The notes under the pieces were generated by a model. It made no database searches. It saw only the letters and a list, made by a program, of their open reading frames with translations, and was not told the origin of the DNA. Below, piece by piece: positions 2 through 41,100 of a stretch of 64,000 nt of DNA. Position 1 is the stretch's first letter, and the number at the start of each line of letters is the position of its first letter. The translations under genes and the position numbers were made by a program. The DNA is from Bacteroidota bacterium (GTDB lineage Bacteria; Bacteroidota; Bacteroidia; Bacteroidales; F082): contig JAHLLA010000009.1 of NCBI GenBank assembly GCA_020444415.1, positions 1 through 64,000 on the forward strand, given 5' to 3'.

Positions 2-3000
2 CTTATATCGTTTGGCCAAAACGCCTGGATCAATGAGTTTCATTATGATAATGCAAGCACAGATGTAAATGAATTTGTTGAGGTTGTAGTTGAAGATCCA
101 GGGAGTTATACACTATCACTATTTCAATTAGATTTATACAATGGTAGCAATGGAGTTGTATATAACACAAAAACAGTGAACCTTTTTGCGGTTGGGAATA
201 CCGTTGGAAATTATACTTTTTACACATTTTCTTATCCTGAAAATGGAATTCAAAATGGTGCACCTGATGGACTTTGTTTGTCCTACAACGGAACAGTTAT
301 TCAGTTTTTGAGCTACGAAGGTTCTTTTACAGCCTCAGGTGGACCTGCCAATGGATTAACATCAATTGATATTGGTGTCGACGAAGATCCTGAACCTTCT
401 GAGGGTAATTCATTACAACTGTCTGGTTCTGGTTCTTCATACAGTGACTTCTCTTGGTTACCGCCGGATACAGAAACACCAGGAGCTTTAAACAATGGAC
501 AATCTTTTGGATTATCTCCAATGCCAGACAACCCTGATTATTTTTCAGCTACAGCGGTTTCTAGCGAACAAATCATTTTATTATGGGATGAAAACAGTGC
601 TAGCGATGATGTATTAGTTGCCTATTCTTTGGATGGAATCTTTGGTGCGCCACTTGTTGGGTCCAACTACAGTCCATCTGATATGATTCCCGGAGGCGGA
701 GAAGTAATTTATATTGGCGATGCTGAAACCTTTCAACATACAGGATTGGCCGCAAACACTCAATACTTCTATCGGGCCTGGTCTGTGGACGGTAGCATTG
801 CTTATTCAAGTGGTTTATCAGACGACGCAATGACATTTGCTGCTGTTAGTCCTAAATTGATTATTTCAGAGGTAGCTGACCCATATAATGCCACAGGTGA
901 CGATAATGAGAAATTCGTTGAAATCTTTAATGCTGGAACTGCAGGAATAAATTTCGCTTCGGACACATGGTATGTATCAAGGCAGGCGCATGGTGGTAGT
1001 TGGGGAGATGTTCAGTTAAGTGGAATTCTGAATTCGAATGAAACAATGGTTATAGCTTATAATCAAGCTGCCTTTGTTGCTGCTTTCGGTTTTGAAGCCC
1101 ATCAGTATAGTTCGTTTATAAGTGGTAATGGGGATGACACTTACGCTTTGTATAAAGATGGTGATCACACCACCGGAACTTTAGTTGATATATATGGGGA
1201 AATTAATGTAGACGGTACAAATACTTTGTGGGAGTATGAAGACAGTAAGGCGGTAAGAAAAAGATCTATAACTGGACCCAATTCCACCTGGGACGAATCA
1301 GAATGGGTGATTATTCCTGCAGATGTTGATCCATCAACAAACACCAATGAGTGTACTCCGGGTTGGCATAATTGGGAATTGACTTGGAATGGAGGAACTG
1401 ATGATTGGCATGAACCAGCTAACTGGGACAATAGTGTTGCTACCACAAGAGATTATCCACCAGATGCAGGCTGTTATGTTGTAATTCCAGCAGAAACAAA
1501 TGATCCGATTATTTCTGGCAGAGCTTCTTGCAATAATATGGTGATTAATACAGGTGCTGTAGTTACAGTAGAACCCCAGAGTTTTCTAGTTTCGGGCAGC
1601 AATATTACAAATACAAATACAGCAGGTTTAATTGTCGAATCAGATGACACTGGTGATGGTATGTTGTTGCTGGGTTCCGGAACAACTCAAGCTACGATTG
1701 AGCGTTACTTATCTGATGATATGTCACACTTCATCAGTGCCCCAACAATTAATGCGACTGCAGATGATCTTTTTCAAGACCATAATCCAGAAGTATACCT
1801 TTATGAATATCACGAATGGGATGATTCGTATAATTATTTGGTGCCTACTTCCACACCCATGCCCAGTGGCAAAGGTTTTTCAACCTGGGTTGATGATGCC
1901 AGTTCAGACTATATTATAGCTGGATTTGATGGGGAATTGACAAGCGCTGATTTTACTTTTAATAGTTCTACTAATCCTTCTATGACCTACTCTGGCGCTG
2001 GTTTGGGTTGGAATTTAATGGGTAATCCGTATCCTGTGCCTTTGAATTGGAGAAAGGGAAGTTGGAGTTCAAACAACCTTGATACGGAGCTAACAGTATA
2101 TATATGGAAGCCAGCAACAAATACTGATGATGATCCTGATGGAACTTGGTTATACAAACCAGCTTTTAGTAGTACAGGCAATTTCAATGGTATTATTCCA
2201 TCAGGTCAAGCCTTTTTTGTAAAGGCAATCGGTAATAGTCCTTCTATTACAATCCCTGCCAATGCCAGAACGGTTTATTACCCAGAAACCACGTATTACA
2301 AATCAAAAGAAATCGTTAATGATAGCACTGATCAAATCGCTGATTATGTAAAAGTTAATGCATCTAACCCATTGGATACGGAAGAAATCTACATCAGTTT
2401 TAATGATATTGGAACAGAAGAATTTGATAATGGCTGGGATGCATCTAAATTAAGAAATAGCTACAGCACGGTTTGCTTATACATCCCTAAAGAAAGCCGA
2501 GATCAATGTATCGAACACCTTCCAACCCTTTACCCCGATGAAGAACGTATTGTTGAAATTGGTTTTGAAACCACTACCGATGGGGAACACTCCATTATGA
2601 TCGATGCCACCTATTTGCCTGATACAGACATCACCCTCGAAGATATGAAGTACGATCAAATGCAAAATATGGATAGCGATTCCATCTACACCTTCGTGGC
2701 TTTTGCAGATGATGATCCCAACCGTTTCAGGATTCATTTTAACAAAACCACCACGGGTATTGAGTTTGATGATTTCAATGAGCAAACCGATCTTTCTGTT
2801 CAAATCTATTCCTACGGTAAAAATGTGTACATCAAGAAGGAGGATGCCAGTACTTCAGGATACGTGATGCTGTATGATATGTATGGCAGGGAAGTGCTCA
2901 CATTACCACTCGAACAAACCCACCTGATGAAAATTCCTGTTCAGGTCAGCAACAGCTACCTGGTTGCCAAAGTAATCAGTGACAGCAAAGTGTTCACTTC

Positions 3001-3019
3001 AAAAGTGTACATAAAATAA
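2..3019 (+). CDS. Lamin-tail / FnIII multidomain T9SS-secreted protein, 5' truncated by the window
   Basis: The frame is open from base 2, so the gene starts outside the window; at least 1005 residues are visible. The first codons read as a lamin-tail-like segment (AWINEFHYDNASTDVNEFVEV). A fibronectin type III-like segment follows at about nt 530-850, a second lamin-tail segment (ISEVADPYNATG...KFVEIFNAG) at about 855-1180, and a segment with TWNGGTDDWHEPANWDN from about 1375. The last 75 residues (YGKNVYIKKEDASTSG ... SKVFTSKVYIK) have the look of a T9SS type A sorting domain. It is probably an exported or surface-attached protein. No enzymatic motif was recognised. It converges on the next gene, with 13 bases between stop codons. 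Confidence 0.8.
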   Translation, partial: LISFGQNAWINEFHYDNASTDVNEFVEVVVEDPGSYTLSLFQLDLYNGSNGVVYNTKTVNLFAVGNTVGNYTFYTFSYPENGIQNGAPDGLCLSYNGTVIQFLSYEGSFTASGGPANGLTSIDIGVDEDPEPSEGNSLQLSGSGSSYSDFSWLPPDTETPGALNNGQSFGLSPMPDNPDYFSATAVSSEQIILLWDENSASDDVLVAYSLDGIFGAPLVGSNYSPSDMIPGGGEVIYIGDAETFQHTGLAANTQYFYRAWSVDGSIAYSSGLSDDAMTFAAVSPKLIISEVADPYNATGDDNEKFVEIFNAGTAGINFASDTWYVSRQAHGGSWGDVQLSGILNSNETMVIAYNQAAFVAAFGFEAHQYSSFISGNGDDTYALYKDGDHTTGTLVDIYGEINVDGTNTLWEYEDSKAVRKRSITGPNSTWDESEWVIIPADVDPSTNTNECTPGWHNWELTWNGGTDDWHEPANWDNSVATTRDYPPDAGCYVVIPAETNDPIISGRASCNNMVINTGAVVTVEPQSFLVSGSNITNTNTAGLIVESDDTGDGMLLLGSGTTQATIERYLSDDMSHFISAPTINATADDLFQDHNPEVYLYEYHEWDDSYNYLVPTSTPMPSGKGFSTWVDDASSDYIIAGFDGELTSADFTFNSSTNPSMTYSGAGLGWNLMGNPYPVPLNWRKGSWSSNNLDTELTVYIWKPATNTDDDPDGTWLYKPAFSSTGNFNGIIPSGQAFFVKAIGNSPSITIPANARTVYYPETTYYKSKEIVNDSTDQIADYVKVNASNPLDTEEIYISFNDIGTEEFDNGWDASKLRNSYSTVCLYIPKESRDQCIEHLPTLYPDEERIVEIGFETTTDGEHSIMIDATYLPDTDITLEDMKYDQMQNMDSDSIYTFVAFADDDPNRFRIHFNKTTTGIEFDDFNEQTDLSVQIYSYGKNVYIKKEDASTSGYVMLYDMYGREVLTLPLEQTHLMKIPVQVSNSYLVAKVISDSKVFTSKVYIK

Positions 3020-3032
3020 ACTTGATTCCTGC

Positions 3033-3956
3033 TTACCTTAGGGTGAAAGTGGTTTCACCAATCAGGTTATCTCCATCGAAAACATCTACATTGTATGTGC
3101 CTTCCTGCAATTCAAGTGAAGGTCTGCGGTTCCAATACATGCACACTTCCTGAGCCACATTCTGGTAATCAACCTCCTCCATTATAGAATATTGAATAAG
3201 TTCACCTTGGTGCATGAAGGTATATTCTTCACCCCTGCCTTTCACAAGGATTTCTTCGTCAGGTTGTGCAATGCGGACATAAATGGTTCTGATGCCGGGC
3301 TCCAGGATGGAGTTTTTACCCAGGGTAAAACAAATCTTTACGCGGTCGGTGCGTTTTGTTTTATCGGTTTCTGATTCTTTACCACTACCTCGCACATGCA
3401 CGGGAACGCTGCTAAGGTTATACGTACTCAAAATAGCGGCTTCTTCAACAATGGTAACAAGTTCTTCCTTGTCTTGCTCCAGGTCGCGGTTTTTGCGTTT
3501 TTCCTGCTGTATTTCCTCCTTAATTTGAAGATTCTCCTCCGTCAGGGCTTCGTTAACAACCACAATGGAATCCATTTTCCTGACATATCCCTGCGAAATC
3601 ACCTGCAGGCGATCCAGTTTTTTCTTTACCTTAAAATAATCCCATTTGTAATTCAACAGTTGTTTGATTTCAGCTGCATTGGCCTGGATAATGCTGTCAA
3701 CGGCTACCAATGAATCTGATAAATCGCCATACAATTCCTTAATTTGTGCATGCTCAAGCATCAGCGAATCCAATTCACTTACCAGTTCAATACGCTGCAT
3801 TTCTTTCTCGGTAAGCAATTCGCTCATATTTCTTTTCACGGATATTAACCAGATGGACAGCCCGATAATTCCAAGAGCCAAAACGATTAATAAAATGTAC
3901 ATCCAGAGATTGCTGTTTTTAGGAGCTGCTGAATTTGAAAGATTTGAATTTTCCAT
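3033..3956 (-). CDS. Membrane-anchored coiled-coil protein of unknown function
   Basis: 307 residues. A single hydrophobic helix (about residues 18-40, LWMYILLIVLALGIIGLSIW) is followed by a long charged heptad-like region (about 45-175, rich in E, K, L and Q) that should form a coiled coil. The C-terminal 120 residues are beta-rich (VKICFTLGKNSILEPGIRTIYVRI, ending in YNVDVFDGDNLIGETTFTLR) and may be an extracytoplasmic beta-sandwich. The topology suggests an inner-membrane anchor with a periplasmic stalk. I do not recognise a named family. It is monocistronic, with about 250 bp to the divergent gene upstream. Confidence 0.7.
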   Translation of the reverse strand: MENSNLSNSAAPKNSNLWMYILLIVLALGIIGLSIWLISVKRNMSELLTEKEMQRIELVSELDSLMLEHAQIKELYGDLSDSLVAVDSIIQANAAEIKQLLNYKWDYFKVKKKLDRLQVISQGYVRKMDSIVVVNEALTEENLQIKEEIQQEKRKNRDLEQDKEELVTIVEEAAILSTYNLSSVPVHVRGSGKESETDKTKRTDRVKICFTLGKNSILEPGIRTIYVRIAQPDEEILVKGRGEEYTFMHQGELIQYSIMEEVDYQNVAQEVCMYWNRRPSLELQEGTYNVDVFDGDNLIGETTFTLR

Positions 3957-4207
3957 GACCTGTTGTTTTATTTAGCAAAAGTAATGACTATCAATACCAA
4001 AAGCAAGATAATGAATTCTCTTCAATTAAAAACGTATCATAAGAAAAACTATTATCAAAACGGCTTAAGTTTCTAACCCCCTTTTGTGTTTCTTAATCAT
4101 CAAAAATTCAGTAATTTAAGAAACATTAATAAATATTTCAATCTGTTATGACTTGAGAAACAGCGTTTTTTATAGATTTATAACCTGTTCAACTAATTTT
4201 TATTGAT

Positions 4208-4798
4208 ATGACAAAATTTACCTTTTTTATGTTGCTTTCTTTATTGGTGTTATCTCCTTTCATTTCACAGGGTCAGGAGGCTGAAGCGAATGAAGGCATC
4301 AAACCGGCACTTTTGGTTATTGACGTGCAGAATGTGTATTTACCCATGATGGATCAGGATGCCATAGATCGGCCCATTGAAATGATCAATGCGTCCGTTT
4401 GGGTATTTAACGAATTTAAGCTCCCTATTATTTATGTGTATCACCAGGATATAGAAGGAGGTCCTCCTGCAGACTCAAAGGAATTTGAATTTACTGACAA
4501 GATTCCTGTACCCGAAGACGCAACAAAAGTGATCAAACATTACGGAAATGCATTTAATAATACGGAACTCGATCAGGTATTAAAAGATTTAGGATGTAAT
4601 ACATTATTCCTTTGTGGTTTGAGTGCCACAGGTTGTGTGATGCATACCTATGTAGGCGCCAACGATTTAGATTACCATACTTTTATAATCAAAGATGCTG
4701 TAATGAGTGATGATCAGGAAAAAACGAAAATGATGGAAGATATTCTGGAAACGATGCGTCTTCAGGCTTTGTATTTTTTCCTTCCGAATTTGAAATAA
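4208..4798 (+). CDS. Exported isochorismatase-family cysteine hydrolase
   Basis: 196 residues. A signal peptide (about 1-22, ending SQG) precedes an isochorismatase-like alpha/beta hydrolase. The expected catalytic triad is visible: Asp39 in LLVIDVQN, Lys110 in VIKHYGNAF and Cys143 in GLSATGCVMHT. The family hydrolyses amide or vinyl-ether bonds (nicotinamide, N-carbamoyl compounds, isochorismate). The substrate cannot be read here, and the genes on either side give no clue. An exported member is less common than cytosolic ones. The stop lies 9 bases from the convergent M28 peptidase gene. Confidence 0.85.
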   Translation: MTKFTFFMLLSLLVLSPFISQGQEAEANEGIKPALLVIDVQNVYLPMMDQDAIDRPIEMINASVWVFNEFKLPIIYVYHQDIEGGPPADSKEFEFTDKIPVPEDATKVIKHYGNAFNNTELDQVLKDLGCNTLFLCGLSATGCVMHTYVGANDLDYHTFIIKDAVMSDDQEKTKMMEDILETMRLQALYFFLPNLK

Positions 4799-35457: not shown

Positions 35458-35808
35458 TTAATACAGGAGGTAAATCCTTTCTTTATTTCTCCAACCGGCA
35501 TCGTATCTGCTATCAACAAAATAGATCAGCAAATCTGCATCATATTTTGAATCGGTAAAATAGACCTTTTTATCAGCATCATACCTGCTTTCAACGAAAT
35601 GCCACAGCCCTTCGTTGCCGGTAGCATTGTATTTACTTTCTTCTTTGTAAACCAGTAAATCAGCATCATACCTGCTGTCGACCACATGTATTAATACATC
35701 CGCATCATAGCGGCTATCGCAGGAGTAAATCTTTTGTGCATTTGTTTGGAGCACTAGCGTAAAGAAGCAGAAAATGGTTAGTGCATATTTGAAATAGTGT
35801 GGTTTCAT
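35458..35808 (-). CDS. Small secreted YDAD-repeat protein (DUF6150-like)
   Basis: 116 residues from the ATG at 35808, with a signal peptide (about 1-25, ending LQTNAQ). The mature part is almost only repeats of about 13-16 residues built on SRYDADLLVYxxD: six units, the third and sixth degenerate (SKYNATGNEGLWHFVE and SRYDAGWRNKERIY). Alternation of polar and hydrophobic residues suggests a small beta structure. The resemblance to DUF6150 is from memory. The stop is two bases from that of the convergent NTF2-like gene. Its upstream region is shared with the first IDDIPFNTE gene. Confidence 0.65.
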   Translation of the reverse strand: MKPHYFKYALTIFCFFTLVLQTNAQKIYSCDSRYDADVLIHVVDSRYDADLLVYKEESKYNATGNEGLWHFVESRYDADKKVYFTDSKYDADLLIYFVDSRYDAGWRNKERIYLLY

Positions 35809-35886
35809 ATAACCGGATTTTAAGGAATTGCTTGCAAAAATTGTGCTGTTTGCTAAAAATACGCACAAATTCTTTATATAAAGAAA

Positions 35887-35918
35887 AATTTCCGCCATTC
35901 ACCGACAGGGTATTGCCA
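35887..35918 (+). promoter_or_regulatory. Conserved 32-nt upstream element, copy 1
   Basis: All 32 bases are identical to 40530-40561. It starts AATTTCCGCCATTCACC and ends GGTATTGCCA, with a short inverted motif ACC-N5-GGT inside. It lies about 39-70 nt upstream of the -7 box of the first repeat-protein gene, as expected for an activator site. It also sits in the divergent region of the YDAD-repeat gene. Confidence 0.6.
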
Positions 35919-35933
35919 GTCATCGATTTTATA

Positions 35934-35964
35934 TTTACACGAGGGCCTTTTCACTATAGTTTTG
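35934..35964 (+). promoter_or_regulatory. Promoter of the first IDDIPFNTE-repeat gene
   Basis: TTTAC at 35934-35938 and TAGTTTTG at 35957-35964 fit the Bacteroidota -33/-7 boxes. The spacing (23 nt between starts) is identical in the paralogous copy. Confidence 0.6.
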
Positions 35965-36004
35965 CTCACAGAAAATGAAACTAAAACTAAAAAACTATCA
36001 TACC

Positions 36005-36436
36005 ATGAAAGCAATAATAAAATCAACCGCCATCATCGTTATCGCCACCTTCCTTTTCTCATTCAGTGCAAGAGCCGATGTAAATTTTAATGAAGAAGCC
36101 TATATTGATGACATTCCTTTTAACACGGAAGCCATTTACAGTAAAGTGGTAATTAAAAGAAACATATTGGATTTCGAAATGCAAGATGAAGCTTATATCA
36201 ACGACATTCCTTTTAGTACTGAAACCATAGCCGAAGTTAAATTATACGATTTAGCAATGACCGAAACATTTGCATTTGACGAGGAAACTTATATTGACGA
36301 CATCCCTTTTAATACGGAAGAGGTTTGCCAGAAACAAAATGATACTTCTGAATCAGATAAATTAACTTGCGATATGCATGAAATGGCGAATAGAAGTAAT
36401 CCTGAAAAAGTATTTGAAATAGAACATTTTAATTAG
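36005..36436 (+). CDS. Small secreted protein with three IDDIPFNTE-type repeats, copy 1
   Basis: 143 residues from the ATG at 36005; an in-frame ATG at 35975 adds ten charged residues before the signal peptide and is less likely. The signal peptide (about 1-24) ends SARA. The mature protein is acidic and carries three copies of a 12-residue motif, EAYIDDIPFNTE, EAYINDIPFSTE and ETYIDDIPFNTE, 31-32 residues apart. Two Cys near the C-terminus (EVCQ and LTCD) are conserved in copy 2 and may form a disulfide. No function is known. It is a paralogue of the gene at 40642. Confidence 0.75.
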   Translation: MKAIIKSTAIIVIATFLFSFSARADVNFNEEAYIDDIPFNTEAIYSKVVIKRNILDFEMQDEAYINDIPFSTETIAEVKLYDLAMTETFAFDEETYIDDIPFNTEEVCQKQNDTSESDKLTCDMHEMANRSNPEKVFEIEHFN

Positions 36437-36472
36437 AACACTTGTATTGGCGTTCAATATTGATATAAAATT

Positions 36473-38383
36473 TTATTTTTTAATAAGCACTGCTTTTGTA
36501 TTATCTGCTTTAACAATATCCTCATAAAAATCTACAAGCAATCCGTATTTCTCATTGGAATATAATCCCTCATTAATTTCCAGTTTCCTAACAAATAGAA
36601 TAGTCGTATCGGTTGCTATGATCTCTGAATAGTATTCTCCAAATTCAACACTAAACGACATATTCTCTGGAATTTTATAGACTTTGTATTCAAGAGGTAA
36701 CTTAAATTGAATTGAATCAATTACAGTAAAGGATCTTCGTACATAAATATCCGACATTCTATCTTCTTTAAAACCAGGTATATTCTCAAGCACACTTATT
36801 GGATTAAGCTGTAATAAATATCTATTCCCCATTAAAACTCCATAATCTGAAAATGAAACATCTAAATTTTCCTTAATAAAGGGGACCAGATCTTTGATTT
36901 CTTCATGCGTAAAACTATTTATTTTTATTCCTGCTCCGTGTAACTTTTCATAGAGTTTTTGTTCTCTTCCTTTAAAATCATCTCTTAGAATAGTTTGATA
37001 GTCGTCATAGAAACTGCCTTTAATTGTTGTTAAAAAAAATGATGTTGCTGTACCATCATTGTTTAATTGTACTTCTCCTGAACAAATTTTCTGATTATCA
37101 TTTTTTGAATACGAAATTGTATTAATCAGCTTTCCTCCGGAATCGTCAATTAAAAGGACTTCTCTATTATCTGTAAATTGACCTATGTATCCGAAAGGCA
37201 TGTTTTGACTTGTACATTCCAACCAGATAGTGTCATTGTCAATAGGAACACAAACAATAACATGGTTAAATTGATTTGAAGGAAAATCTGCAACAATATC
37301 CTTTTCCATTTTTCCAGCCCTGACCAAAGTATAGTATCCTTTAATACCTGCTATATCAAGTAATGCGATCATATAATTTGACAATGCTTTACAATCTCCA
37401 AATTTTAGATTATCTACTGTTTCAGCATCAAAGGGTTCCCAGCCGCCAAGTCCGGCCTGTATGCTCACGTATCGCGTGTTATTTTGCATATATGAATACA
37501 ATGCCTTTGCAACATCAGTTTTGTTATTTATGCCTGAGATTTCATTAATTATTTTTTGCTTTGTTTCGTCGCTCAAATTGAGCTTATTCTCATTCAGTTG
37601 ATATATAAATAGACCAAAGTTTTCCCATGTGTCACTATATCCAACATGTGAGGCAATCTCAAAATAGATTGGAGCAATATATACAACAGGGGTTAAATCG
37701 GTAATCGGTAAGCTAAATGGTTCTTTTTCTATTGCTTTGTAATTTTCTAATAACCATTTATAGATTGTGTTTTCATCTACTTCATATCTGTTTAATTCTG
37801 GAGCAAAATCATTTTCGTAATACTTGAAATACTGATTTTTAGCATGTGTGACGGTAAAACTTGATCTCTCAACCGCAATACCATAATCAATTACAGGAAT
37901 CCAATCAGGGTAGTTTATAATACCATTATATACAATATCAAATGAATATTCAACTGTAAACGGAATTTCAAGATATTCCGGATTAATTAATTTAACACGA
38001 TTGTCATTGTAAATCGAAAATCCTGATATAGCGCTTAAATCTCTGATGTCTTCATTTGGGATTCTTTTCACCTTCCTGCCTTCAGAATCGTAAACAATAG
38101 CCTTGATGCTTGTAATATTCGAAAATTTATCATAAAATTGAAAAAGCAATGCTTTATCTACTCCATTTTTATTTAAAATAGTTATTGCAAATTCAACTCT
38201 TTTAATCGCTTTACGTGGCGATTTTATTTCAAATTGAATATCACTATATCGAATAACCGCTTTTGAATTAATGAGTAATTCAGCAGGGATGCTATCTACA
38301 TGATAATTTGTTGCAGAGACTGTCAAATAATTTCCTAAAATTATAAAAGTGAACAAAGCCACTTTTAAAATGAACATTCTCAT
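36473..38383 (-). CDS. DUF3857 / transglutaminase-like protein with intact catalytic Cys
   Basis: 636 residues with a signal peptide (about 1-24). The N-terminal DUF3857 beta domain spans about 45-250. The transglutaminase-like core has YMQNNTRYVSIQAGLGGWEPF, then FGDCKALSNYMIALLDIAG (catalytic Cys) and SNQFNHVIVCVP (catalytic His), with an acidic residue in TIWLECTS. The C-terminal part (about 420-636) is a beta-rich DUF3858-like domain. These exported proteins are thought to act on peptides or cell-wall material, but no substrate is known. It starts 2 bp after the related upstream gene, so the two form an operon. Confidence 0.82.
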   Translation of the reverse strand: MRMFILKVALFTFIILGNYLTVSATNYHVDSIPAELLINSKAVIRYSDIQFEIKSPRKAIKRVEFAITILNKNGVDKALLFQFYDKFSNITSIKAIVYDSEGRKVKRIPNEDIRDLSAISGFSIYNDNRVKLINPEYLEIPFTVEYSFDIVYNGIINYPDWIPVIDYGIAVERSSFTVTHAKNQYFKYYENDFAPELNRYEVDENTIYKWLLENYKAIEKEPFSLPITDLTPVVYIAPIYFEIASHVGYSDTWENFGLFIYQLNENKLNLSDETKQKIINEISGINNKTDVAKALYSYMQNNTRYVSIQAGLGGWEPFDAETVDNLKFGDCKALSNYMIALLDIAGIKGYYTLVRAGKMEKDIVADFPSNQFNHVIVCVPIDNDTIWLECTSQNMPFGYIGQFTDNREVLLIDDSGGKLINTISYSKNDNQKICSGEVQLNNDGTATSFFLTTIKGSFYDDYQTILRDDFKGREQKLYEKLHGAGIKINSFTHEEIKDLVPFIKENLDVSFSDYGVLMGNRYLLQLNPISVLENIPGFKEDRMSDIYVRRSFTVIDSIQFKLPLEYKVYKIPENMSFSVEFGEYYSEIIATDTTILFVRKLEINEGLYSNEKYGLLVDFYEDIVKADNTKAVLIKK

Positions 38384-38385
38384 GA

Positions 38386-40266
38386 TTAATTCTGTTTAAT
38401 AATTAAAGGCTCCGACATTTTTTCTATTACTTTACTATAAAATTGTTGTAGAATCGGATATTCATCGGGTATGAATAGCGGTTTATTCCTGCCATATTTA
38501 CAATTTAATTGCAATATCTGTCCGAGTTGTTTTATTTGGTATGAGAAATATGCTTTATCTTCTGGCATCACTAGATTTATAGATTGAGGTAATTCAATTA
38601 CCTGGCAATTATCAGGTAGCTTGATCATGATCGTAATTGATTTCTCATTGCAGTATCCAAAATCGATGGGGTACTTTCTTTCGGAAGTGTTGAAAGGATT
38701 TTCTTCTATCCTTTCATACAATATAGGTGTAATATATATTTCATCATCTATAACAGTAACCTGATTTTCAATCTGTACCTCTAATGATTCGGTGACGGGT
38801 AAATAAATACTGTCAATGTTATTAACTACCGAATTTCTGATTCGGAGACCATAATGTTTATCAGCCAATTTTTCAATATACTCATCAACACTATTGAAGT
38901 TTTCTATATTTTTCCTATAATTATATGCAGCATAGTCATACTTTTTGGAACTGATTGTTCCGTATAAACTATAGTCAGATGCATCTAAATCCAAATTATA
39001 AAATACAACTTCTTTGTCTTTTTTATTAGTTTCTACTAAAACACTTTCAATTTCCCGCTTGTTAAGTATCGCTTGTCCTTGCCAATTTAAAGTTCGCATA
39101 GGTAACAACTGAAATGGTAATAGTTCTTCTGATGCGTCCAGAAGGTAATTTTTATTGTCTGATTTTACATATGCAATAACATAATTGAGTTTGTTAATAC
39201 TGGGTTTAATAATTGAGAGCATACCATTGTCTCGTGTACTCATCACAATGGGATATGCCTCAATATCACATGCATTTAAAAGTTGGATAAGCGCAAAGTT
39301 GATATCAGCAGAGTTTCCATACTTTTCACCATAAGCTTTTGCTACTGAATAATTTTCAGGATAAAGAGACTCATATCCATTCCATTTAATTTCTTTAACC
39401 TTTTCAAAAACAATACGTATTTTTTCTTCTACGGTTTTTTCGTCTAAATTTAAATCTTTGGCGATACCTTTTGAGCTGAAATTGCTTCTTAAGATATCTC
39501 CAAAATAACTTAAGTCCCATAAATAAGCTGAAACGTCATTCCAATCGGCAGCATAATCCTTTTGAAAATACGGGTGGTTAATACGGAGCACATCGAATTC
39601 TATTCTTGAGATATAGTTTTTATAAGAATTCATATAAGGTTCTGTATCAAATGATGGTACATTTTCAGTAACCCATCTAATACCAGTATTTATTTTAAAT
39701 GGTATAAAACCAAAATAATTCTTTCTAAATGTTACATAGGGTGAATCCGGTAATAAAAGTTCGCTATGCAGAACTGGAATTCTATCCTGAAAAGTCCATT
39801 CCAAAGGAAATCCTTCTGAGATAAATTCAATATCAATGACCGAACCGACTTTAACATTTGGCATAGCAACCCTGGTTCGTCGATAACCTGCTATCACTTT
39901 TTCTTTAAAAATGGATTCATTCTTTAACTTTGTTTCTACAATCTCTCCATTCTCAAGATTAAAAGTCTTACCTCTAATGTTTGTTTTCTCTTGGATATTA
40001 AATACGTGGTTTCCATACGAGAGTCCTTCCTTTTTGAGAATTTTTATTCTAAGTATTCTTGTTAATCTGAATTCTTTATTGTAGAAAAAGCCATAATTGC
40101 ATAAAACAATAGCCGGAGCACTAGAATCAATTTCATAAACGGTTTTTTTAAGATCGTTAATATCGATTTTACCAAACTTAATTGGGGGTTTTTGTCCACA
40201 TGTATCAATTGTAATAATTAAGCTAAAAATAAAAAAGAGACATGCTGTTTTGAATAGGAATTTCAT
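38386..40266 (-). CDS. DUF3857 / transglutaminase-like protein lacking the catalytic Cys
   Basis: 626 residues with a signal peptide (about 1-24, ending DTCG). It has the same architecture as the downstream gene: DUF3857 (about 40-250), transglutaminase-like core and C-terminal beta domain. In the core the nucleophile position reads YGNSADINFALIQLL instead of GDCKA, and the His position reads KLNYVIAYV. The fold is kept but thiol catalysis is not possible. Relatives with this GNSADIN motif are common in Bacteroidota, so this is an established subtype and not decay. It is first in the pair and has 375 bp of upstream sequence. Confidence 0.82.
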   Translation of the reverse strand: MKFLFKTACLFFIFSLIITIDTCGQKPPIKFGKIDINDLKKTVYEIDSSAPAIVLCNYGFFYNKEFRLTRILRIKILKKEGLSYGNHVFNIQEKTNIRGKTFNLENGEIVETKLKNESIFKEKVIAGYRRTRVAMPNVKVGSVIDIEFISEGFPLEWTFQDRIPVLHSELLLPDSPYVTFRKNYFGFIPFKINTGIRWVTENVPSFDTEPYMNSYKNYISRIEFDVLRINHPYFQKDYAADWNDVSAYLWDLSYFGDILRSNFSSKGIAKDLNLDEKTVEEKIRIVFEKVKEIKWNGYESLYPENYSVAKAYGEKYGNSADINFALIQLLNACDIEAYPIVMSTRDNGMLSIIKPSINKLNYVIAYVKSDNKNYLLDASEELLPFQLLPMRTLNWQGQAILNKREIESVLVETNKKDKEVVFYNLDLDASDYSLYGTISSKKYDYAAYNYRKNIENFNSVDEYIEKLADKHYGLRIRNSVVNNIDSIYLPVTESLEVQIENQVTVIDDEIYITPILYERIEENPFNTSERKYPIDFGYCNEKSITIMIKLPDNCQVIELPQSINLVMPEDKAYFSYQIKQLGQILQLNCKYGRNKPLFIPDEYPILQQFYSKVIEKMSEPLIIKQN

Positions 40267-40529
40267 ATTACTTTAATTAAATATATAAATTCTATACGAA
40301 TGATTATCAATAATATAAAAGCAATATAAGTGTGGGTCAAGGTAACAGAGCAAGGCCAAGTATGTTTTATGCATCAATAACCACAGTGTTAATCCGGTAT
40401 GCAAAGTTAAGTTTCTAATATGGGTTAAAAAACTTAAATTAAAATTTATAATAACTATAAACAATAATTACTATTCTTTCATCTCTATTTATTAAATATA
40501 GAAGACTACTCCAGCACATAATACTGATT

Positions 40530-40561
40530 AATTTCCGCCATTCACCGACAGGGTATTGCCA
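40530..40561 (+). promoter_or_regulatory. Conserved 32-nt upstream element, copy 2
   Basis: Identical to 35887-35918 over 32 bases. It lies at the same distance from the -7 box (TAGTTTTG) as in copy 1. Downstream of it identity falls to about 80-85 percent until the start codon, so the element is better conserved than the sequence around it. Confidence 0.6.
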
Positions 40562-40576
40562 CTCGTCGATTATGTA

Positions 40577-40607
40577 TTTACACGGAGGCTATTTCACTAT
40601 AGTTTTG
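40577..40607 (+). promoter_or_regulatory. Promoter of the second IDDIPFNTE-repeat gene
   Basis: TTTAC at 40577-40581 and TAGTTTTG at 40600-40607 have exactly the spacing seen in copy 1. Confidence 0.6.
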
Positions 40608-40641
40608 TTCTCAGAAAATGAAACTAAAAAACAATTATACC

Positions 40642-41100
40642 ATGAAATCAATTTTAAAATCAACCGCGATCACAACTATCTTCACCCTTCTTTTCTCATT
40701 TAACATGATGGCCGATATAAGTTTTAATGACGAAGCATATATTGAGGATATTCCTTTTAATACGGAAGCCATATACAGCGAAGTGGTTATCGAGAGAAAC
40801 ATTATCGATTACGAACTAAATGAAGAAGCCTACATCAACGACATACCTTTTAGTACCGAAACCATAGCCGAAAATACGTTATATGAATTGGCAATAACAG
40901 AGGAATTTACATTTGACGAGGAAACATACATTGATGATATTCCTTTCAATACGGAAGATATATGCCAACAACTGAATGCAACAACTGAGTCAGATACCTT
41001 AACCTGCCATGTGAATGAATCCCTGAATAGCCATTTGCAGGAGGAGTCAGTAGAATTAAAGTATTTTGAACAGAACAGCCATATCCTGGTGCGTTTTTAA
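40642..41100 (+). CDS. Small secreted protein with three IDDIPFNTE-type repeats, copy 2
   Basis: 152 residues from the ATG at 40642. The signal peptide (about 1-24) ends NMMA. The three repeat motifs are EAYIEDIPFNTE, EAYINDIPFSTE and ETYIDDIPFNTE, with the same 31-32-residue period as copy 1, and the two C-terminal Cys are kept (DICQ, LTCH). It is about 65-70 percent identical to copy 1 by eye, with a longer C-terminus (ending SHILVRF). It ends at a strong terminator. The function is unknown. Confidence 0.75.
   Translation: MKSILKSTAITTIFTLLFSFNMMADISFNDEAYIEDIPFNTEAIYSEVVIERNIIDYELNEEAYINDIPFSTETIAENTLYELAITEEFTFDEETYIDDIPFNTEDICQQLNATTESDTLTCHVNESLNSHLQEESVELKYFEQNSHILVRF

Follow-up and report, generated by a model that had tools for sequence, protein, structure and literature searches.

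The window considered here, the first 64,000 nucleotides (positions 1 to 64,000, forward strand) of contig JAHLLA010000009.1 in assembly GCA_020444415.1 of a Bacteroidota bacterium (Bacteroidales, family F082), carries two genes for small repeat proteins that are each preceded by the same tandem direct-repeat element. With a probability of roughly three in four, this element is bound by the LytTR response regulator of a liaF–kinase–LytTR operon in the same genome, and it is predicted to drive an envelope-stress regulon that includes the repeat genes. Regulation of the repeat genes through the shared site is well supported on comparative grounds.

The element consists of a tandem direct repeat CC(A/G)TTCACCGA with 21 bp from start to start, as read from the upstream regions of relatives. 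Ahead of repeat gene 1, it occupies 35895..35926 on the forward strand and reads CCATTCACCGA, followed by CCAGTCATCGA starting 21 bp on; ahead of repeat gene 2, it lies at 40538..40569 on the same strand. Both copies end 7 nt ahead of TTTAC, with TAnnTTTG following, a pair which we take to be a Bacteroidota-type promoter from its consensus. The two promoters (35934..35964 and 40577..40607, forward strand) feature the −33-like TTTAC at 35934–35938 and 40577–40581 and the −7 element TAGTTTTG at 35957–35964 and 40600–40607, at a spacing of 23 nt in each case—the shared promoter at equal spacing that an earlier sequence-only reading of this DNA had described. The 32-base identity between 35887–35918 and 40530–40561, from which that reading started, is likewise present in the sequence and is embedded in a 109-nt block (35878–35986 versus 40521–40629) of 87% identity. 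As a measure of the element, the identity is cut short at its right end; the tandem unit is the 32-mer at the coordinates given above.

Repeat protein 1 (35975..36436, forward strand; likely ATG at 36005) features a signal-peptide-like start and three (Y)I(D/N)DIPF(N/S)T repeats, and repeat protein 2 (40618..41100, forward strand; likely ATG at 40642) is 66% identical to it; start codons and signal peptides were assigned by eye. Each protein carries three [IV]xDIPF motifs 31–32 residues apart. The two Cys residues that had been called conserved are common to the window pair, but across 32 members of the family no Cys position is fully conserved; a Cys beyond residue 24 occurs in 64 of 94 family open reading frames (ORFs).

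In the 3.15-Mb genome, a 27-nt core of the element is found at up to 3 mismatches in the two window places only, with no match in the control, so the sharing is not a matter of chance. The tandem pattern gives 5 matches at a spacing of 21 bp and none at 22 bp. A degenerate version at up to 2 mismatches occurs in exactly 7 places; allowing 3 mismatches adds 4 matches, compared with 6 in the reversed control. Five of the 7 places precede repeat genes—the two in the window and those at C5:622 kb, C10:236 kb, and C20:24.8 kb (contig and position). The sixth precedes a pspC + LiaF-like operon at C10:55.9 kb (PspC PF04024, 85.5 bits in Pfam). The seventh, at C5:713 kb, precedes an operon in which liaF is followed by genes for a histidine kinase (PF06580) and a response regulator of the LytTR type; for the three products, Pfam scores LiaF-TM at 54 bits, LiaF-like_C at 33 bits, His_kinase PF06580, and Response_reg with LytTR at 90 bits. 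Hence, the element is shared between the repeat genes and a putative sensor operon.

Across 1.92 Mb of locus DNA, 119 distinct contexts score at least 20 and the reversed control none. The gene that comes next encodes a repeat protein in 58 of these contexts, LiaF in 38, PspC in 12, TM2 in 4, and another protein in 4, with none found in 3; this sample is not a fair one because the DNA was chosen for these genes and sites and partly overlaps. The TM2-domain-like small membrane proteins with a tandem site (L078, L079, L081, and L155, with Pfam TM2 scored on L081 only) are candidates for further members of the regulon. A tandem site is also seen upstream of adaptor-like proteins in L087 and L090 and of a large outer-membrane-receptor-like protein in L108, these labels having been given by eye.

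The link to the liaF operon was followed with a matrix trained on repeat genes only (13 sites in its first version and 39 distinct sites in its second). Of the 100 genomes compared (60 from the same family and 40 from elsewhere in the order), 77 have a liaF match, among them 54 of the 60 from the family. In the 30 best-matching liaF loci, all within the family, the best site lies at −88 to −115 without exception (30/30), i.e., ahead of the candidate regulator's own operon; 27 score at least 19.9, two score 17.9, and one scores 12.9 (29/30 at 17.9 or above). Downstream of liaF, a kinase motif is present in 29 and a response-regulator motif in 27 of these loci, which end about 1.5 kb past liaF. 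Outside the family, 20 liaF loci from 20 other families were taken from the 23 matching genomes, and the matrix reaches at least 17.7 in 7 of them. Self-similarity of the upstream DNA, which uses no motif, peaks at exactly 21 bp in these 20 loci (10.30, with at most 8.65 elsewhere), at 21 bp in the 30 family liaF loci (12.63 versus at most 8.80), and again at 21 bp in the repeat genes that bear the tandem site (12.75 versus at most 9.43). The two genomes with repeat genes and no liaF match (G024 and G099) have only repeat genes of the sigma54 class described below, and five genomes of genus g14 with neither a liaF nor a repeat-protein match give no match to the strict pattern at 0–1 mismatch.

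The repeat genes themselves fall into two promoter classes. Requiring two or more exact cores gave 94 ORFs and left some loci uncovered; searching with a profile yielded 116 repeat ORFs that cover all 101 loci in 41 genomes, and the 112 with readable upstream DNA are the basis of the counts. Three matched places (G020, G049, and G058) were left out of the locus set. By a matrix built from sites of this same set of repeat genes, the tandem site is present in 55 of the 112 (54 score at least 22 and one 17.5, the next score being 5.7); these form class A. Of the remaining 57, all but two carry what corresponds to the −24 half of a sigma54 promoter, an element of the TTGGCA or TGGCA(C/T)(A/G) type, and these 55 form class B; the other 2 (L047 and L050) have neither. 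Only two of the 55 tandem-site genes also match the −24 element, both at least 200 nt upstream of the matched region. The −24 criterion accepts TTGGCA(C/T)(G/A) and TGGCA(C/T)(A/G). The sigma54 expression as a whole was loosened after reading of the sequences showed missed −12 variants: the strict expression found 25 of 49, the looser one 43 of 49, and the full set gave the 55 of 57. Tree, palindrome, and −12 counts refer to a smaller set of repeat genes. At the −12 position, class B features TAG, TGG, TCG, TTG, or ATG at the right spacing, with TTG in only 6 of 43. A palindrome of the TGTNCG-N4-CGNACA type lies upstream of 28 of the 49 class B genes in that set and of none of its 44 class A genes, with an average of 0.05 in shuffles. 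In the window's own genome, an enhancer triple precedes one class B gene at 0 mismatches; otherwise the matches stay below the control (24 versus 42).

Both classes are present in 19 of the 41 genomes. On a tree of 93 proteins—built from few columns, with many open forks and a bootstrap that is not settled—parsimony counts 9 class changes, at least 2 of them forced by well-supported branches, compared with 31 in shuffles. The promoter class is, hence, inherited but was probably swapped more than once. In L095, a gene for a sigma54-activator response regulator and genes named by eye as ABC-transporter-like (L095:2-913 and 1224-4357) adjoin the liaF–kinase–LytTR operon, so the two circuits may be linked in that genome.

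In the mechanism proposed, a membrane branch with LiaF would sense envelope stress, and the LytTR protein, once phosphorylated, would occupy the direct repeats that immediately precede the −33 element. This would switch on the regulator's own operon, the pspC–LiaF-like operon, and five genes for exported repeat proteins, two of which lie in the window; other members of the repeat family would be wired to a sigma54/enhancer circuit. Since the site is common to the liaF sensor operon, the repeat proteins look like envelope-stress outputs and not like partners of the DUF3857 proteins encoded between them in the window. The sequence-only reading had put forward a regulated envelope system with transglutaminase-like partners; the regulated part is sustained by the element common to the liaF–kinase–LytTR and pspC–LiaF-like operons, but the DUF3857 partnership is not.

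Several observations weigh against this assignment. Three family liaF loci score only 12.9–17.9, and an earlier, smaller matrix reached 17.0 on reversed upstream DNA. In 13 of the 20 liaF loci of other families, the matrix stays below 17.7. Class B repeat genes also show a self-similarity peak, smaller and at 20–21 bp (9.31 and 9.27 versus at most 8.57), which is attributed to enhancer-like half-sites. Of the 54 genomes of the family in which liaF is matched, 13 lack a repeat-protein match; the circuit can, accordingly, do without these proteins. G024, which is 93% complete and has no liaF match, has one match to the strict pattern at 1 mismatch. In G050, a genome of genus g14 with no liaF match, a looser tandem pattern gives 40 matches versus 3 in the control; these matches are read as probably unrelated because the strict pattern gave 1 versus 5 in the control. 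The AlphaFold model of a repeat protein, computed from three sequences, is weak, with a mean predicted local distance difference test score (pLDDT) of 26.6. Finally, the regulator is assigned by operon association, and another regulator could share the site.

It is unlikely that some other protein, whether a second LytTR regulator or something unrelated, binds the tandem site and has the liaF operon as just one of its targets, even with 7 LytTR matches in the genome to choose from. None of the other six LytTR loci shows a site at a threshold of 13, the site stands before liaF in all 30 family loci, and the 21-bp spacing persists in other families where the letters have diverged.

The liaF–kinase–LytTR assignment gains from comparison with known systems, for which the literature is cited from partial texts of the papers. 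Published LytTR sites consist of two 9–11-nt repeats with 11–13 nt between them (PMC4847170), and LytTR operons are autoregulated through direct repeats that immediately precede −35 (PMC6193735). With 21 bp from start to start, the element has this geometry; a half-site taken as 11 nt leaves a gap of 10 nt, just under the published range. Two direct repeats with 21 bp from start to start, placed directly upstream of the −35/−33 element and ahead of the regulator's own operon, are features common to the LytTR regulatory systems HdrRM and BrsRM and the LytTR two-component regulators BtsR and YpdB, and BtsR is the regulator's best NCBIfam match, albeit below the cut-off (198 of 246 bits). The half-site letters TTCACCGA, however, are peculiar to the present system, as is LiaF in the operon; HdrRM, moreover, is a two-gene system, whereas a receiver domain and a kinase are present here.

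With LiaFSR and VraTSR of Firmicutes, the system shares a LiaF-type membrane protein adjoining a two-component pair, as well as PspC/LiaF-like genes among the putative targets. It differs in its PF06580 kinase, its LytTR regulator, and the exported repeat proteins as extra outputs. LiaR and VraR carry a LuxR-type DNA-binding domain. For want of a LuxR/NarL-type regulator, the liaF–kinase–LytTR system is not filed as a member of LiaFSR, though it may work in a LiaFSR-like manner. The phage shock network resembles the operon at C10:55.9 kb in its PspC and LiaI-LiaF-like transmembrane domains, but no Toastrack-type domain was scored by Pfam in the 308-aa protein. LytTR genes with Toastrack-LiaF-TM are described in Firmicutes (PMC11237479), and the regulon reported here is not mentioned in the portion of that article's text examined. 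A survey suggests a role of PspC of Bacteroidota in beta-lactam stress (PMC9239133), and the presence of LiaF and PspC suggests that the stress concerned is one of the cell envelope (PMC11237479, PMC9239133). In Flavobacterium johnsoniae, a histidine kinase or its LytTR neighbor (FJOH_RS09515 and FJOH_RS09520) was mutated in each of the five coevolved lines tabulated (PMC10197871); this pair might be liaF-linked.

Small exported proteins under an envelope-stress regulator are also familiar from Spy, CpxP, and ZraP, an analogy with no claim of homology, and one that differs in that two promoter types serve one family here. ZraP is sigma54 dependent. In Flavobacterium psychrophilum, the sigma54 regulon includes functions in envelope stress along with exported proteins that have no assigned function (PMC9723704), the repeat proteins being unmentioned in the part of its text examined. 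Because of the LytTR-like geometry, the stress link of LiaF and PspC, and this sigma54 envelope regulon taken together, the repeat proteins are read as acidic exported stress proteins that presumably act in the periplasm or at the surface. As a tentative extension, one for which the odds are low, the repeat family could be the common output, perhaps a fed-back extracellular ligand, of independent LiaF–kinase–LytTR and sigma54/enhancer circuits whose members swapped promoters; the (Y)I(D/N)DIPF(D/N)T core would then be read by sensors or laid down at the envelope.

The repeat proteins might instead be secreted signals or antagonistic peptides of the pheromone or bacteriocin kind, which is rather improbable. 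They are small and multicopy, with 2–5 cores per protein at a spacing of about 32 residues (in ORFs with at least two cores) and repeats that vary around the fixed core, and in S. mutans bacteriocins are under the control of LytTR systems (PMC6193735). In addition, in L044 and L048, which belong to a single genus, the class A repeat gene is directly followed by genes that were named by eye as those of an ABC ATPase and a large permease and of TolC-like and adaptor-like proteins. A signal or antagonist is at odds with the sharing of the site with PspC and LiaF-like membrane genes and with the sigma54 class, which makes up half of the readable family. Among the large neighbors of repeat genes, a Pfam scan of 153 proteins of at least 450 residues encoded no more than 3.5 kb away (scanned over their first 420 residues and drawn from 85 of the 100 loci other than the window) finds ABC_tran in 3 of the first 77, and no family exceeds 5/77 or 6/76.

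Between the two repeat genes lie two DUF3857 genes on the reverse strand, and the repeat proteins had been proposed as substrates or partners of these transglutaminase-like proteins in one local system. This is very improbable. The first protein (36473..38383) keeps Cys and His and the second (38386..40266) has lost both: in an alignment of the genome's four DUF3857 proteins, protein 1 reads GDCK and NHV, and protein 2 reads GNSA and NYV. The latter is, for this reason, unlikely to be a working transglutaminase. While both are DUF3857 proteins as stated in the sequence-only reading, their Transglut_core scores of 21.6 and 15.4 bits are below the Pfam cut-off of 23. Adjacency in the window speaks for a partnership, as does the genome's only other DUF3857 pair (L201 and L202, C5:610.5-612.9 kb), with the repeat gene at C5:622.4 kb some 9.5 kb away; this nearness is taken for chance. 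Yet the tandem site faces the repeat gene and not the DUF3857 genes. Furthermore, a profile of the four proteins, run against 1601 ORFs including those of the window, finds no DUF3857 gene in the 100 other repeat-gene loci, so that repeat genes do occur without such neighbors and the window is the only one of 101 loci that has them. The loci mostly extend at least 5 kb to either side, contig ends permitting, and single queries, too, gave DUF3857 matches in the window only. The Pfam scan was added because the four proteins are diverse and remote members could be missed—with phmmer, the two window queries missed each other at E 1e-3. Among its 153 neighbors, DUF3857 is outside the 25 families listed, which sets upper bounds of 2/77 and 1/76 (at most 3/153) and not zeros. 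Judged from these comparisons, the DUF3857 pair appears to be a bystander outside the system.

Least probable, to the point of being negligible, is a recent tandem duplication that carried the promoter along without wider meaning, as the 27-mer is indeed confined to the two window places but the conserved core is family-wide, and the diverged site precedes genes of different families as well as repeat genes of 24 other genomes.

The small YDAD repeat protein noticed beside the first element is identified as DUF6150 (PF19647, E 9e-40). Its gene (35458..35898, reverse strand) is divergent from repeat gene 1, with a probable start near 35808. DUF6150 stands beside repeat genes only inside the genus, namely in the window, G001 (L046), and G003 (L122); a weak match in L179 (E 7e-4), considered as a fourth case, was disregarded.

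The repeat-protein family looks lineage-restricted. Repeat protein 2 finds a match in 44 of the 100 genomes, its own included: 42 of 60 in the same family and 2 of 40 in other families of the order. Among 395 genomes across the phylum, its own genome, which holds six repeat genes, was the sole match at E 1e-6, in a sample in which near kin may be few. An 86%-identical relative occurs in a metagenome-assembled genome labelled Marinilabiliales. None of 32 diverse repeat proteins matched Pfam (E 0.01), 1 of 32 matched an unrelated ferredoxin model in NCBIfam (E 7e-4, taken as chance), and a profile of the 32 found no match among PDB sequences. Class B repeat genes were seen near an rsmI-like gene in L033 (C5:657 kb of the window's genome), L043, and L044 and near a Nudix-like gene in L033, L043, and L051, both named by eye; this neighborhood is partly conserved.

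Titles and abstract openings in the open-access literature hold, among the matches listed, nothing on LytTR regulons of Bacteroidota or on the sites bound by such regulators there, and the matches listed likewise include nothing on the regulon described here or on the repeat proteins. Sequence alone has here yielded a regulatory site together with its likely regulator and a regulon of modest size. For an unnamed family of exported proteins, the regulon gives a context, namely membrane stress, and it offers a candidate envelope-stress reporter for this lineage of Bacteroidota. That a single protein family should be divided in equal parts between two types of promoter (55 + 55 of 112) is unusual and directly testable, and it opens the question of what a cell gains by placing proteins of one kind under two separate alarms.

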